A DNA stretch of 20,525 bases from the IMG/VR virus record IMGVR_UViG_3300020162_000338, positions 1 to 20,525 of that record, one strand, 5' to 3'. Below the pieces are notes generated by a model. That model did no database searches. It saw nothing but the letters and a program-made list of their open reading frames with translations, and was not told the DNA's origin. Every line of letters begins with the position of its first letter. Position 1 is the first letter of the stretch. Positions 15,428-20,525 of this stretch are shown piece by piece. This stretch comes from a virus. The position numbers and the translations under genes were made by a program.

Positions 15428-17374
15428 TTAAGATGCTGTGTACTTGTGTGCTGTAACAGCGTTACCTAGGTTAGTAGTAACACGAGTCATACCGGTACGT
15501 AGGCTAGCTACCATAACACGGCGTTGTGTTTCAACTAATTCTTGAGTATCAATGCGTAGACCGCGTTGGTTACCAACAATAAAGTTACCTGGGTTTACGC
15601 AAACGGCGCCTGCAACACCAGTTCCTGGGGTAGCAAACTCTGCGGAAACTAATACTGGGCTACCACCAATCTGGCCGATTTGACCAGTTAGTAATGTAGC
15701 TTGTGTACCAACTTGGTTCATTGTCTGGAAGACTGTGTCTTCTAGCAACTGGTAATATGTATCGGTATTAACGATATAGATTACTTCTTGTGGGTCTAGA
15801 CCCCAAGCACCAAGACCTTGGCGTAGAACGCGCATTTTAGCAACTGTCATACCTGCAGCAACTGTATTACCGGTAGCTGTGGTGTTGGTTGCCCAAATGC
15901 TTAGACCTTTAACAGGGTCACTGCCTGAACCAGCACCTAACAAGAATGCTTTGTCAACAGCGCGGGCAACACGACGAATCATACCGTCACGAATAACTGG
16001 CATTAAAGCGATAAGACTATCTTCTTCTTCTTCGTATGCTGTGTACTCGTTTGTAGCTAGTTTGTATGCATTTAGAGTAATCTCTTTTAATGTATGAGTA
16101 GCATTTCCACCAGCGCCTGGACCTGCTGCACCAAGGGTAGCTGGAACAGCGCCAAAGTCAGCGTTAGTAACCCAAGTAGCAGTACCTGCTTCTGGATTTA
16201 CTGGGATTGTCATTACGTTGGTCTGCATAGCAATGTTGCGGAAAATTGGAGCAACAACTAAACGACGACGAACTTCAGACTCTAGGTTTAAACTAACTTC
16301 TAGTTCCCAGGTAGCTGAAGGAACGTGAGCGCCGTACTTCTGTACTAGTTCACGACCAAGCTTGGTACCGTCAATAGACTTACCAGCCATTTTAGCTAAC
16401 ATAACTGCTTTCTCTTTGTCAGCATACTGCATGCCATCTTGCTTGGTGTCACTGAAAGTCATGCGGGACTTTGTGATAGCTTCAATTTCGCTTGCTTTTT
16501 CTTTTAGAGCAGCTTCTAGACCTGCTAGAGCACTCTTGTGAGTTTCTTCAGTTGCAGCTAGACGCTTTTCAACTTCAGCTAGTAGTTTTTCAGCACCAGT
16601 GTCAACTGTGCTAATTGTAGCTTTGATTTTGGCTGTAAGATCTGCTTCAGCTTGTGCTTTTGCAGCTTGATCAGCCACTGCTTTAGCAGTTTGATCTGCG
16701 AAAGCTTTTGCTGTTTGTTCTGCTGCTTTTTGTGCTGTAGCTGCTAACAATGTTTCTAATTCTCTTGGATCCATGATGTTCCATTCCTTATTAATGTCGC
16801 TTTTTGCTTCCGTAGAGGACTCTAGCCCTTTAGCTGACTCGCTTTTGGGTGCAAATTGCATTTTGAAAGATTTAAATTCTTCTGCGTCGTTAAACGCTTT
16901 AGAAAGACTAAATATTGTATTTTGATTAGCTGGCACTGACACGACTGATATTTCGTGCAATTCCAGTTCCTTAACTACAAACACTTCTGCTGCACTGTTG
17001 TACTCTGCATCTACGATACGGAATCCAATACTAAATGCGGTCAGTATGCCGTCTTTTACAAGATTAAACACGTCGTCTGCAGCTGCTGAGATTCTGGCTT
17101 TAACCCATAATCCTTTAGCATCAATTCTGTGTTCTATCATCCTACCGACTGGCTCTGAATGATCGTGGTAGGCTAAAATTACTGGGTTTTTCAAGTAATT
17201 TTCCATTCCCGCTTCCCAGACATTAGTCGGGACAACGTCACCTTGTCTATCCATATCGTTAGTACTTGCGTAGCCTTCGATTACAATAGAGTCGATCATT
17301 CCGTCTTTGGTAGGTAGTGTTTCACTTTTGATGAATGTACTGTTTAAGCGCAGTACTTTATTTTTATCTACCAT
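15428..17374 (-). CDS. Prohead protease - major capsid protein fusion
   Basis: This 648-residue protein joins two HK97-type functions normally encoded by separate genes. Residues 1-165 match the S78 prohead protease: catalytic His70 in AYHDHSEPVG, Ser115 in LTAFSIGF, and the ELHEISVVSVPAN stretch at 138-150 with a probable third residue Glu141. Residues about 203-310 are Ala/Lys/Glu-rich and probably coiled coil, as in the scaffolding delta domain. Residues about 330-648 look like the HK97-fold capsid subunit (ESEVRRRLVVAPIFRNIA, TYTAYEEEEDS-like acidic loop, VDKAFLLGAG, GLRIDTQELVETQRRVM). The protease should release itself and remove the scaffold segment during maturation (family knowledge). 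AAGGGG four bases before the ATG at 17374 is a strong ribosome binding site. Met201 may serve as an internal start for the scaffold-capsid part alone. A terminator and hairpin follow the stop. Confidence 0.92.
   Translation of the reverse strand: MVDKNKVLRLNSTFIKSETLPTKDGMIDSIVIEGYASTNDMDRQGDVVPTNVWEAGMENYLKNPVILAYHDHSEPVGRMIEHRIDAKGLWVKARISAAADDVFNLVKDGILTAFSIGFRIVDAEYNSAAEVFVVKELELHEISVVSVPANQNTIFSLSKAFNDAEEFKSFKMQFAPKSESAKGLESSTEAKSDINKEWNIMDPRELETLLAATAQKAAEQTAKAFADQTAKAVADQAAKAQAEADLTAKIKATISTVDTGAEKLLAEVEKRLAATEETHKSALAGLEAALKEKASEIEAITKSRMTFSDTKQDGMQYADKEKAVMLAKMAGKSIDGTKLGRELVQKYGAHVPSATWELEVSLNLESEVRRRLVVAPIFRNIAMQTNVMTIPVNPEAGTATWVTNADFGAVPATLGAAGPGAGGNATHTLKEITLNAYKLATNEYTAYEEEEDSLIALMPVIRDGMIRRVARAVDKAFLLGAGSGSDPVKGLSIWATNTTATGNTVAAGMTVAKMRVLRQGLGAWGLDPQEVIYIVNTDTYYQLLEDTVFQTMNQVGTQATLLTGQIGQIGGSPVLVSAEFATPGTGVAGAVCVNPGNFIVGNQRGLRIDTQELVETQRRVMVASLRTGMTRVTTNLGNAVTAHKYTAS
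16774..16789 (-). other. Possible internal translation start for scaffold-capsid part
   Basis: Inside the fusion gene, in-frame Met201 (ATG at 16774) falls exactly at the junction between the protease and the coiled-coil scaffold domain. AAGGA (16789-16785) lies 10 bases upstream and GGAA four bases upstream. Use of this start would give a 448-residue scaffold-capsid protein and raise the capsid-to-protease ratio. The ribosome binding site spacing is not ideal, so this is a candidate only. Confidence 0.4.
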
Positions 17375-17385
17375 ATTACCCCTTG

Positions 17386-18570
17386 TTATTCTTTAGCGGA
17401 GGCGGGACGTCCTCCTTGAGCTGGGTTAGCAGCTGAACCAGCAATGTTAGCTGGTATCCTTAATTCGTCATTGCCTGTAATTGGCTCATAACGTAATTCT
17501 GTTCGTGCTTCGTTTGCAGTAATAATTCCTGCATTAACTAGTGTTGAGTGGTATGCAGCAATATCTTTTAAGTCTGGTTGTAGTGCGCTGACTGAACTTG
17601 TAATTGCTTCTATATCGTAACCGTAATATCTCTCTAAAGAAGAGGTAAATCTTCTAACAATAGGCATTACTGTTTCTAAATAAAATAGTCGTAAATTTGG
17701 GCTGATATTGGCGTTATTTCCACCTTCCATTAAGATTGGCGGAACTCCAATTGCTTGCATAATCATGGAACTGTGAGTTTTGATCGAAAGATCAAAGTCC
17801 ATTTCCTTGAAACTTGTTTGTGATACTGAGTGTGGTTTTAAACCGGAGTCTAAAATCACAGGCTTTTTACCACCTGATTTAGCACTGTATCTTTGCAACC
17901 AGTTCTGAATAGTTTTTTCTTTAGCAACTTGCGATAGGGTATTATCGCTAGTTAAGATTAATCCAAAAACTGCCCCGTTATCAAAGAAATGATCTTGAAA
18001 ATCTTTCATTGAATATAGCAGATTAATCGACTGCTCTGCTGCCTCAATTCTAGAACTACCACGGTAAATAGATTTAGAATTAATATCTTTGAAGTGAAAC
18101 ACTTCTGATTCTTTAAACTCTACCAAGCCGTTATATAAATAACCTTGAATAAACGTTTTAGTGTCTGGTAAGATTTGTACGTCTTTGGCTGGTAAATGGT
18201 ACATGAATACACCGTCAAAGTGTATAAACACGTTACCGTCCAAGATCAAGTCTTGGAAAAGTGCCATTCTGAATTCTTGTGCTGACTGATAAGGATTAGG
18301 CCTAAAGTTCAGCAAAGTATTCAATGACTTTTGGCGAATGCCAGTCACAATACCATCATGTATTTTGTCTTTAACGTCATAATCTAAGCTAGCGCAGGCT
18401 GACACTACCATGTTAACAGACCTATTTACAGACTCCAATTTCTGAAAAGCCTGTAAATAATTTAATTTTGCTGTAGTACCAATTCTGGTACCCTCAGCCT
18501 GTGCAATTCTTGCTTGTGCTGGGTTCAGCTTTTCTCGAACCCAATCACCTGTGCGGGTAATCCATGACAT
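17386..18570 (-). CDS. Portal protein (HK97 family)
   Basis: This 394-residue protein forms the dodecameric ring at one capsid vertex through which DNA enters and leaves. It is slightly shorter than HK97 gp3. It matches the HK97-type portal family: an N-terminal W-rich start, SVNMVVSACASLDYDV, LNFRPNPYQSAQEFR, DGNVFIHFDG, FHFKDIN, and the C-terminal NAGIITANEAR followed by GNDELRIPAN, a very typical portal ending. A QAIGVPPILMEGGNNANIS stretch at about 280-300 is also characteristic. It lies between the HNH gene and the capsid gene, as in HK97-like phages. The ATG at 18570 is preceded by AAGGAAA, which overlaps the stop region of the HNH gene. Confidence 0.95.
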   Translation of the reverse strand: MSWITRTGDWVREKLNPAQARIAQAEGTRIGTTAKLNYLQAFQKLESVNRSVNMVVSACASLDYDVKDKIHDGIVTGIRQKSLNTLLNFRPNPYQSAQEFRMALFQDLILDGNVFIHFDGVFMYHLPAKDVQILPDTKTFIQGYLYNGLVEFKESEVFHFKDINSKSIYRGSSRIEAAEQSINLLYSMKDFQDHFFDNGAVFGLILTSDNTLSQVAKEKTIQNWLQRYSAKSGGKKPVILDSGLKPHSVSQTSFKEMDFDLSIKTHSSMIMQAIGVPPILMEGGNNANISPNLRLFYLETVMPIVRRFTSSLERYYGYDIEAITSSVSALQPDLKDIAAYHSTLVNAGIITANEARTELRYEPITGNDELRIPANIAGSAANPAQGGRPASAKE

Positions 18571-18581
18571 AACTTTTTCCT

Positions 18582-19013
18582 TTAAATGAACTCGGAGAAA
18601 AAGCTGCCAGAACTAGTTTTAGGTATTTCGGTTCCACCTGTGAGGAATTTTTCACGCTGTATCCCGATCCAACGGGCCTGTTTCGGTTCCGATCCAGGTT
18701 TAGGAGCTTTACCATAAACACCGTGCAACGCTATATGGTGACGATTACAAAGGGTGTAAACTTCTTCATATAACTCTGTATGATGCTCGCTAATAAACTC
18801 GTCTCTTACGGCTAAAATACCATCGTCAGTAGAAATGTCATAACCTTTGCGTTCGGACCATTTTTCTAAGAGTATAGTTACTGAGTGTAAATGATGAAGT
18901 TCTAGGTCAACTGTGGTTTCACAGATGTGACAGGTAGACTTCTTTTCGTAAGCTGCTTTAGCGCGATCTCTGACCCACTTAACAGGAATACGTTTGTTTG
19001 TATTTTTAGCCAT
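18582..19013 (-). CDS. HNH endonuclease, packaging-associated
   Basis: This 143-residue protein has an HNH pattern: Cys28 and Cys31 (TCHIC), His40-His41-x-His43 (LELHHLH), then Cys89 and His92 (LCNRHH) with His97 close by. The two Cys/His pairs would bind zinc and the paired histidines would lie at the catalytic site. In HK97-like phages an HNH protein beside the terminase stimulates terminase cutting during DNA packaging; that role is established for the HK97 type and inferred here from position between the terminase and portal. The ATG at 19013 lies eight bases inside the Dps-like gene with no Shine-Dalgarno, so it is probably translated by coupling. A homing endonuclease is the alternative. 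Confidence 0.85.
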   Translation of the reverse strand: MAKNTNKRIPVKWVRDRAKAAYEKKSTCHICETTVDLELHHLHSVTILLEKWSERKGYDISTDDGILAVRDEFISEHHTELYEEVYTLCNRHHIALHGVYGKAPKPGSEPKQARWIGIQREKFLTGGTEIPKTSSGSFFSEFI

Positions 19014-19452
19014 TTTTTAGCGTACTGCGTAACATCCACGAGTGTTTGCGATGAGCATCTTGACGATCTGCTAAAAAGTTTGAGAGACCGTGGTCGCCCA
19101 TCATTTCAGCCATTTTAAATACTGTGCGGAACATTTCTGCCATAGTATCTGAATCAGCTAATAATTCTTGTGTCATTTGCATACCGTCAGGTACTGCTTC
19201 TTGACACTCAACTACCGACATTTCGTCTAGGGTTTCAAAAGCGGCAGGGGTATAAATTCGGGCTGCACGTAGCTGTTCGGCAAACGTGTCAATAGACCCA
19301 TAAACTTCAGTGTAAATATTGCCAAAAAGTTCGTGGTACTGTGGAAATAGGTATCCTTCCACATTCCAGTGAAAGTTGGCAGCTTTTAAGAAAAAGCTGA
19401 ATTCCGACGCAAAAGCTACACGTAGTGCCTGTAAATATTGTTCTTTGTCCAT
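19006..19452 (-). CDS. dps: Dps-like ferritin-family protein
   Basis: This 148-residue protein matches the Dps branch of the ferritin superfamily. Bacterial Dps forms 12-subunit shells that oxidise iron with peroxide and protect DNA. His28 in FHWNVEG, His40 in YHEL, Asp55 and Glu59 in DTFAEQL have the same spacing as E. coli Dps His51, His63, Asp78 and Glu82. The residue equivalent to Asp67 is Gly44. The C-terminal GDHGLSNFLADRQDAHRKHSWML also fits Dps. The N-terminal tail is short and not basic, so tail-based DNA binding is unlikely. I place the start at ATG 19452, with GGAAAA six bases upstream. An in-frame ATG at 19536 lies in the -35 box of the promoter and upstream of the expected transcript start. 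It is an accessory gene in a packaging region, and a virion or host-protection role is inference. Confidence 0.87.
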   Translation of the reverse strand: MDKEQYLQALRVAFASEFSFFLKAANFHWNVEGYLFPQYHELFGNIYTEVYGSIDTFAEQLRAARIYTPAAFETLDEMSVVECQEAVPDGMQMTQELLADSDTMAEMFRTVFKMAEMMGDHGLSNFLADRQDAHRKHSWMLRSTLKNG

Positions 19453-19507
19453 AAGTTTTCCAGTTAGCCGTAAATTTTGCGTATCACGTGCTCGTACATT
19501 TCCTAGT

Positions 19508-19536
19508 ATTATACTGGATAAGCACAGAAAAGTCAA
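19508..19536 (-). promoter_or_regulatory. Sigma70-type promoter for Dps-like gene and head genes
   Basis: On the minus strand TTGACT (19536-19531) is followed by 17 bases and TATAAT (19513-19508). One base differs from consensus. An A-tract (AAAAAA) lies upstream of the -35 box, as in the tape measure promoter. Transcription should start near 19501, about 49 bases before the chosen Dps ATG. No terminator separates it from the terminase, so the downstream genes may be read from both. Confidence 0.85.
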
Positions 19537-19553
19537 TGATGATTTTTTAACAC

Positions 19554-20525
19554 CTATAAGGTATACGTGTACAAGGCGTATCGTAGCGCGTCAGCCATGT
19601 GCGAATACTTATCATGCTTAGGACGCTCGCGTTGCAAGCCTTCCTTATCATCCCAGCGGTATTGATCCAACATGGCTAACACGTGCTCGCAGTGTGGAGC
19701 TACTTTAAGGCGATTTTGTTGTACCAGAGTTTGCACATAGGCAATTCCAGGTAACACGTCTTTTTTGGCTTTAGTGGTTGCTAGGTTGTACAGGTAAGCC
19801 AAGTCTGACGCAAACTGTGCAGCTGCTGAGTCAATAAAGATAGTTTCAATACCCCACTTGGTGCATAAGCTTTGAAAATGCTCAGAATGTTCTCGTGTGG
19901 TCTTCTCTGCTTTAAGATACTCGTCCACCACCCAAAAACAGTCCCCAACATGGTCATAGACCACAGCCACAAAAGCAGTTTCGTCGCGGTAACCTGGGTC
20001 ACAGCCAGCAATTGCTTCACCCACAAGTTCTAGGGGTGGTGCTACCACGTCGGTTTGCGAGTAGTTGTAGATTTGACCGGCATAGGTAGTGAACGAAGCC
20101 ATGTACTCTTGTTCAAACTCTGCTTTAGTCATTGATCTACGGGCTTCAGCTACATCCGACTCGGCCATGCGGGTATTCTCTGTATAGTCCGCTTGTAAGC
20201 TAACCCATTCTGGAAAGTTAGGGTCAAATCCGCGGTTCCAAAATTGTGAAAACCAGTTGTTGCGACCGCGTGGGGTGCTGATAAAGATGGCCTTTGCACC
20301 TGGCTTGTCCAGGGTAGGGCGTAGTGCTACGTTGAAAGCAGCCTCACCGCCTTCGCCCAAAGCCGCCTCGTCAAATATAATTAGGTCATAGCTGCGACCA
20401 ACTGTGCTGTCTACTGTTGAAAGTGAGCCCATGCGGATAGTCGACCCATTGTCCAACTCAATAATCTTGTCCTTAAGATTATCCCTGGCAACTTCTAAGT
20501 CAAAGTGCTTGATTAAACGGCGCTG
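19554..20525 (-). CDS. terL: Terminase large subunit (partial, N-terminus missing)
   Basis: The frame is open to the right edge, giving 323 visible residues; the Walker A part is outside the window. This is the ATPase and nuclease that pumps DNA into the prohead. Visible Asp52-Glu53 in DLIIFDEAAL is the Walker B site with the catalytic Glu. The STPRGR at 83-88 matches the coupling motif. The RNase H-type nuclease has Asp176 in GCDPGYRDE, Asp232 in FIDSA and Asp312 in HMADALRY as metal ligands. The first in-frame ATG inside the window (20456) is internal and not the true start, because the frame continues upstream with terminase-like sequence. The stop is TAG at 19554-19556. The small terminase subunit is probably upstream, beyond the edge. 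The DNA is richer in GC than the tail genes. Confidence 0.95.
   Translation of the reverse strand, partial: QRRLIKHFDLEVARDNLKDKIIELDNGSTIRMGSLSTVDSTVGRSYDLIIFDEAALGEGGEAAFNVALRPTLDKPGAKAIFISTPRGRNNWFSQFWNRGFDPNFPEWVSLQADYTENTRMAESDVAEARRSMTKAEFEQEYMASFTTYAGQIYNYSQTDVVAPPLELVGEAIAGCDPGYRDETAFVAVVYDHVGDCFWVVDEYLKAEKTTREHSEHFQSLCTKWGIETIFIDSAAAQFASDLAYLYNLATTKAKKDVLPGIAYVQTLVQQNRLKVAPHCEHVLAMLDQYRWDDKEGLQRERPKHDKYSHMADALRYALYTYTL

Follow-up and report, generated by a model that had tools for sequence, protein, structure and literature searches.

We found that the window (the whole 20,525-nt stretch of viral DNA that was analysed) carries a gene for a Dps-type mini-ferritin as the first gene of the head operon of a T5-like phage, where it appears to be an optional cassette between an old operon promoter and the next gene. 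We consider it fairly probable that the protein is co-made with the packaging proteins and acts as a peroxide-driven ferroxidase that would limit Fenton damage to progeny DNA. The family, the ligands, the operon position, the promoter, the presence/absence history and the purifying selection on the gene all come directly from computation. Dps proteins have already been annotated in cultured phages (PHROG 3636; e.g. Aeromonas phage LAh_9, Salmonella phage SE131 and Synechococcus phage S-SRM01), and in these the gene sits beside nucleotide-metabolism genes or in other non-structural regions, in contrast to the position found here (Table 1). New are the head-operon slot, its gain/loss history, the SciA neighbourhood and the reassignment of the promoter to the operon; a literature search of partial coverage returned no paper that describes a Dps gene within the head operon of a phage.

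Table 1. Features of the head operon and its upstream border in the window
Feature	Position	Strand	Remarks
Terminase large subunit (TerL), 3' part	19554..20525	minus	upstream border of the slot
Sigma70-type promoter of the Dps-SciA-portal-capsid operon	19508..19536	minus	TTGACT-17-TATAAT, 11/12; kept with and without Dps
Untranslated stretch, -10 box to Dps ATG	19453..19507	minus	55 nt; length and sequence differ among relatives
Dps (mini-ferritin) CDS	19006..19452	minus	148 aa; ligands H28, H40, D55, E59; W29, Y47 next to the di-iron site
HNH nicking endonuclease, SciA (T5.153) orthologue	18582..19013	minus	8-nt overlap with the Dps stop
Portal protein	17386..18570	minus	same operon as Dps
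Prohead protease (S78) fused to HK97-type capsid protein	15428..17374	minus	same direction

Family, fold and iron site of the phage Dps

The gene product is a bona fide Dps mini-ferritin, as had been proposed from the sequence. It matches the Pfam family Ferritin (PF00210; E=1.7e-16, 60.9 bits against a cut-off of 24.5, far beyond chance) and PHROG 3636 (E=3e-25 in a profile search), and among solved proteins its closest sequence match is the Dps PA0962 of P. aeruginosa (E=6e-23). The AlphaFold2 model of the single chain, made with 22 homologues (mean pLDDT 94), agrees with these matches and shows the expected four-helix bundle, with four long helices and the Dps BC helix (residues 3-30, 36-63, 72-78, 90-117 and 121-147). 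A fold search of the PDB with this model returned a top list made up entirely of Dps-type structures, headed by PA0962 (PDB 8ff9; TM 0.90, rmsd 1.5). A ferritin or bacterioferritin (24-mer maxi-ferritin) is ruled out by the length of the protein, the lack of a fifth C-terminal helix in the model and the Dps ligand pattern. The scores against the NCBIfam Dps equivalogs NF006975, NF041388 and NF052461 (31-44 bits) lie below their cut-offs (114-300), which places the phage protein in a distinct Dps subfamily.

In PA0962 the iron ligands are H37, H49, D64 and E68 (PMC10002758), and with a constant offset of 9 they correspond to H28, H40, D55 and E59 of the phage protein, the spacing that had been noted originally. 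These four residues, W29 and Y47 are invariant in all 83 phage proteins compared (63 T5-like and 20 T4-like) and are also kept in the compared cyanophage and bacterial sequences. Because the ligands are invariant, and with the precedent of PA0962, which oxidises Fe with H2O2 and shields cells from H2O2 (PMC10002758), we propose a peroxide-driven ferroxidase activity for the phage Dps; we also infer a dodecameric cage. The two proteins are alike in fold, in the four iron ligands and in the Trp beside the site; they differ in that the phage-borne protein is only 30% identical, that the tyrosines of the PA0962 radical trap (Y27, Y30, Y81 and Y84) are largely replaced by F or L, that Q138 of PA0962 is Asp, and that almost every phage protein has Asn in place of the pore residue D134, so that iron traffic may differ from that in PA0962.

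The slot between TerL and SciA and its promoter

Downstream of the dps gene, which lies between the terminase and the HNH and portal genes as originally described, we found the genes for the HNH protein, the portal and the protease-capsid fusion, followed by T5-type connector and tail genes, including a match to the T5 tail completion protein p143. The HNH protein had no match in a Pfam profile search, and its model matched the T5 endonuclease SciA (9qgx/9qgv, E 9e-9; the PDB entry name is 'nicking endonuclease'), in line with a phmmer comparison (1.9e-22) and with synteny, since T5.153, located directly before the T5 portal gene, is 36% identical. The earlier label of an HNH nuclease was thus right and can be made more precise: the gene is the orthologue of the T5 nickase SciA (T5.153), with C28, C31, H40, H41, H43, C89, N90 and H93 as invariant residues. 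A literature search of partial coverage yielded no paper on SciA itself. This orthology makes the phage T5-like, and the nearest TerL proteins among cultured phages are those of Vibrio Demerecviridae (47-49% identity); the assignment as T5-like (Demerecviridae) is one by homology and order of TerL, SciA, portal and head/tail genes rather than by formal taxonomy. In T5 the backbone order is the same (TerL-T5.154-SciA-portal), but the slot holds T5.154 instead of Dps, and protease and capsid are separate genes. They are also separate in Vibrio phage vB_ValS_X1 (Demerecviridae; TerL 49% identical), where the slot lacks Dps and TerL is followed, after 74 nt with a promoter-like site at the same place (TAGACA-16-TATAAT), by a SciA-like gene and the portal gene.

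The presence of dps in the slot is variable. A scan of viral contigs with Dps returned 277 relatives, 80 of which were read together with the window; the order TerL-Dps-HNH-portal, whose conservation had been put forward as a check, was found in 53 of these and another arrangement in 28. Another scan, for which the HNH protein was the query, yielded many relatives without Dps. When the Dps-, HNH- and TerL-based scans were pooled, we obtained 121 distinct TerL-to-HNH junctions, of which 70 contain Dps, 42 contain nothing (lengths of 71-173 nt; one of them from a cultured Vibrio phage) and nine contain other DNA, proportions that reflect contigs gathered by similarity and not population frequencies. 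As about 42% of the junctions are without slot Dps (empty or with other DNA), the gene is dispensable. In all 70 Dps-bearing junctions the following gene starts -8 to +1 nt from the Dps stop. The presence/absence pattern needs at least eight changes, all forced by well-supported branches, on a tree of TerL, HNH and portal proteins that cannot tell gain from loss. What was a single odd gene thereby becomes a testable pattern, with Dps repeatedly gained or lost at one exact point in an uncultured T5-like clade. The gene is under purifying selection, with a median dN/dS of 0.11, similar to that of the neighbouring SciA gene. As separate observations, in the Dps-less contigs L087, L103, L108, L118, L175, L198, L219, L228 and L229 about 700-900 nt of DNA lie between TerL and the promoter, and L004 has six extra genes in the slot, upstream of promoter and Dps.

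Another important finding was that the near-consensus promoter in front of dps, which is indeed present (-35 box at 19536-19531, -10 box at 19513-19508), is not the gene's own, contrary to what had been supposed. By itself the consensus scan was weak, with four promoter matches found against 4.5 expected. Nevertheless, the -35/-10 pair is present in all 121 junctions (10-12 of the 12 positions match, and all except one have a spacer of 17), that is in 70 of 70 with Dps and in those without, while leader and spacer sequences diverge; shuffled empty junctions score 11-12 of 12 in only about 0.4%. This conservation puts the promoter beyond chance. In every junction class it directly precedes Dps or, where Dps is missing, SciA, and the empty junctions that retain it, in which it drives the SciA-portal operon, rule out a Dps-specific promoter. 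It is thus an old promoter of the head operon, and because Dps-bearing and Dps-less junctions have it in common, Dps is best regarded as an optional cassette between this promoter and the next gene. More generally, a promoter that seems to serve a cargo gene specifically can in fact be that of the operon into which the cargo was inserted. Late expression does not follow from a near-consensus promoter alone.

The open reading frame originally given for Dps (19006-19536) exists, but the gene starts further downstream: the homologues, when aligned, start at the ATG at 19452 (product MDKEQYLQ...), and the TTG at 19536 falls within the -35 box, at the start of the hexamer, which rules it out as the start. 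Elsewhere in the window, a perfect promoter-like sequence (12/12, TTGACA-17-TATAAT; 10771-10743, minus strand) was seen 87 nt upstream of the tape measure gene. In relatives, near-consensus promoters with a spacer of 18 nt recur upstream of TerS (L002:836, L002:2247, L019:1530 and others); they share a CAATTATA-like core, and the next forward gene found is distant from them.

Other Dps and ferritin-like genes in phages

In a tree, the slot Dps, the T4-like Dps and a second, divergent T5-like group form one phage group, which lies apart from the cyanophage Dps and from the sampled bacterial sequences. The most divergent slot proteins (L112 and L130), considered as candidates for independent acquisition, have long branches of unsure placement inside this group. 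No close bacterial donor was found: a single scan of genome contigs gave only two relatives at 32%, and plasmid homologues reached at most 35%, with thin bacterial sampling, for which reason we do not call the protein phage-specific.

The T4-like dps genes adjoin genes for a ClpA/B-type ATPase and a cytidylyltransferase-like protein. The second T5-like group occupies a separate site, behind genes for collagen-like and short fibre-like proteins and a few genes behind a ribonucleotide reductase that matches B12-type domains (L425:4686-5123, L426:4563-5000, L427:4580-5017, L429:4740-5177, L430:4446-4883, L331:5001-5438, L332:5001-5438 and L428:4639-5091). The operon at this site encodes a 305-aa protein, the collagen-like protein and the short fibre-like proteins, usually with Dps last, and is convergent with a PhoH gene; in L431 Dps is reduced to a C-terminal remnant. 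In second-site genomes the TerL-SciA junction is empty wherever visible, and Dps at both sites was not found among the contigs examined, few of which show both.

Some empty-slot relatives carry a ferritin-superfamily protein elsewhere: L210, L230 and L174 (97-102 kb, found via TerL alone and without slot Dps) all have second-site Dps or rubrerythrin, and rubrerythrin occurs in three of 17 long contigs, a recurrence that is suggestive only. Weak PF00210 matches in other long contigs were rejected as second Dps copies, as the inspected reading frames encode helical non-ferritins. Rubrerythrin (PF02915) was seen in several T5-like contigs (L325:2376-2828; L333-L335), and viral contigs contain at least 600 stretches related to it. 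A separate and abundant cyanophage-type family (L239-L318; 292 stretches) is related to the Dps of Synechococcus phage S-SRM01, and in one phage protein (L238:145-1500) a Dps domain is fused to a long lysine-rich C-terminal part.

Proposed function and alternative explanations

In the reading that we favour, host RNA polymerase would transcribe dps together with the genes for the SciA nickase, portal and capsid, and since the Dps stop overlaps or abuts the SciA start, Dps should be made alongside the packaging proteins. The protein would probably assemble as a cage of 12 subunits, with each di-iron site shared by two of them, that oxidises Fe2+ with H2O2 and retains the product inside. Both Fenton reagents would thus be removed at a stage when the progeny DNA, probably with nicks made by SciA, is being packaged and is beyond repair. 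The timing of expression and the benefit to the phage are inferred. Several points appear to count against this reading, namely the variable leader and ribosome-binding region, the dispensability of the gene, the largely lost tyrosine network, the Asn at the D134 position and the occurrence of SciA both in relatives that have Dps and in relatives that lack it, by which the two are not obligatorily linked. The head-operon position in this lake-water relative of T5 suggests that such phages make iron/peroxide protection at the time of DNA packaging. Oxidative damage during packaging then becomes a plausible selective force on phages, and relatives with and without slot Dps are clean natural pairs for testing this idea.

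There is a modest chance that Dps is instead generic cargo: a gene that raises fitness, lies by chance where insertions are tolerated downstream of a strong promoter, and has no special tie to packaging. It would then help the infected cell to withstand peroxide or iron whatever the stage of infection. The repeated presence/absence changes, the variable slot (T5.154 in T5, other DNA in nine relatives) and the existence of Dps genes outside this slot, also in phages of other types, fit such a role, but in the slot Dps invariably follows the promoter and is closely coupled to SciA, and both sites in the clade adjoin structural-type genes. The latter would also be expected of a virion protein, with cages or subunits in or on the particle that protect the packaged DNA or decorate it and a gene placed for stoichiometric assembly: the first site is in the head operon and the second directly behind the collagen-like and short fibre-like genes. 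We regard this as unlikely, however, as Dps has no signal, fusion or tail region for capsid attachment, is optional in the clade, and has homologues among non-structural genes in T4-like phages, cyanophages and cultured phages.

T5 virion DNA has programmed single-strand nicks that depend on SciA, and Dps and the nickase could be thought of as a functional pair, in which Dps would shield the nicked genome up to its enclosure in the head. An oxidative break opposite a programmed nick would give a lethal double-strand break, and a peroxide-consuming iron cage co-expressed with the nickase and packaging proteins would guard against it. We consider such a pairing unlikely. The classical T5 nick motif, GCGCGGTG, was absent from the window but also from the 31 kb of T5 examined, which makes its absence uninformative.

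It is very unlikely that Dps serves chiefly as an iron store for iron-dependent phage or host enzymes rather than in peroxide defence: the gene adjoins thymidylate synthase or ribonucleotide reductase genes in cultured phages and lies near a reductase at the second site, but that reductase, with its B12-type domains, needs no di-iron centre, and the head-operon position would be late for nucleotide synthesis. Least credible of all is a Dps that coats phage DNA or cleaves host DNA, although PA0962 cuts DNA in vitro (PMC10002758) and PHROG 3636 is labelled 'DNA binding protein', which is annotation only: with a pI of 4.8 and a net charge of about -10 the phage protein is acidic, only two residues precede its first helix, and the basic N- or C-terminal tail of E. 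coli-type DNA-binding Dps is absent at both ends, which, as the original prediction had argued from the N-terminus, speaks against DNA coating.
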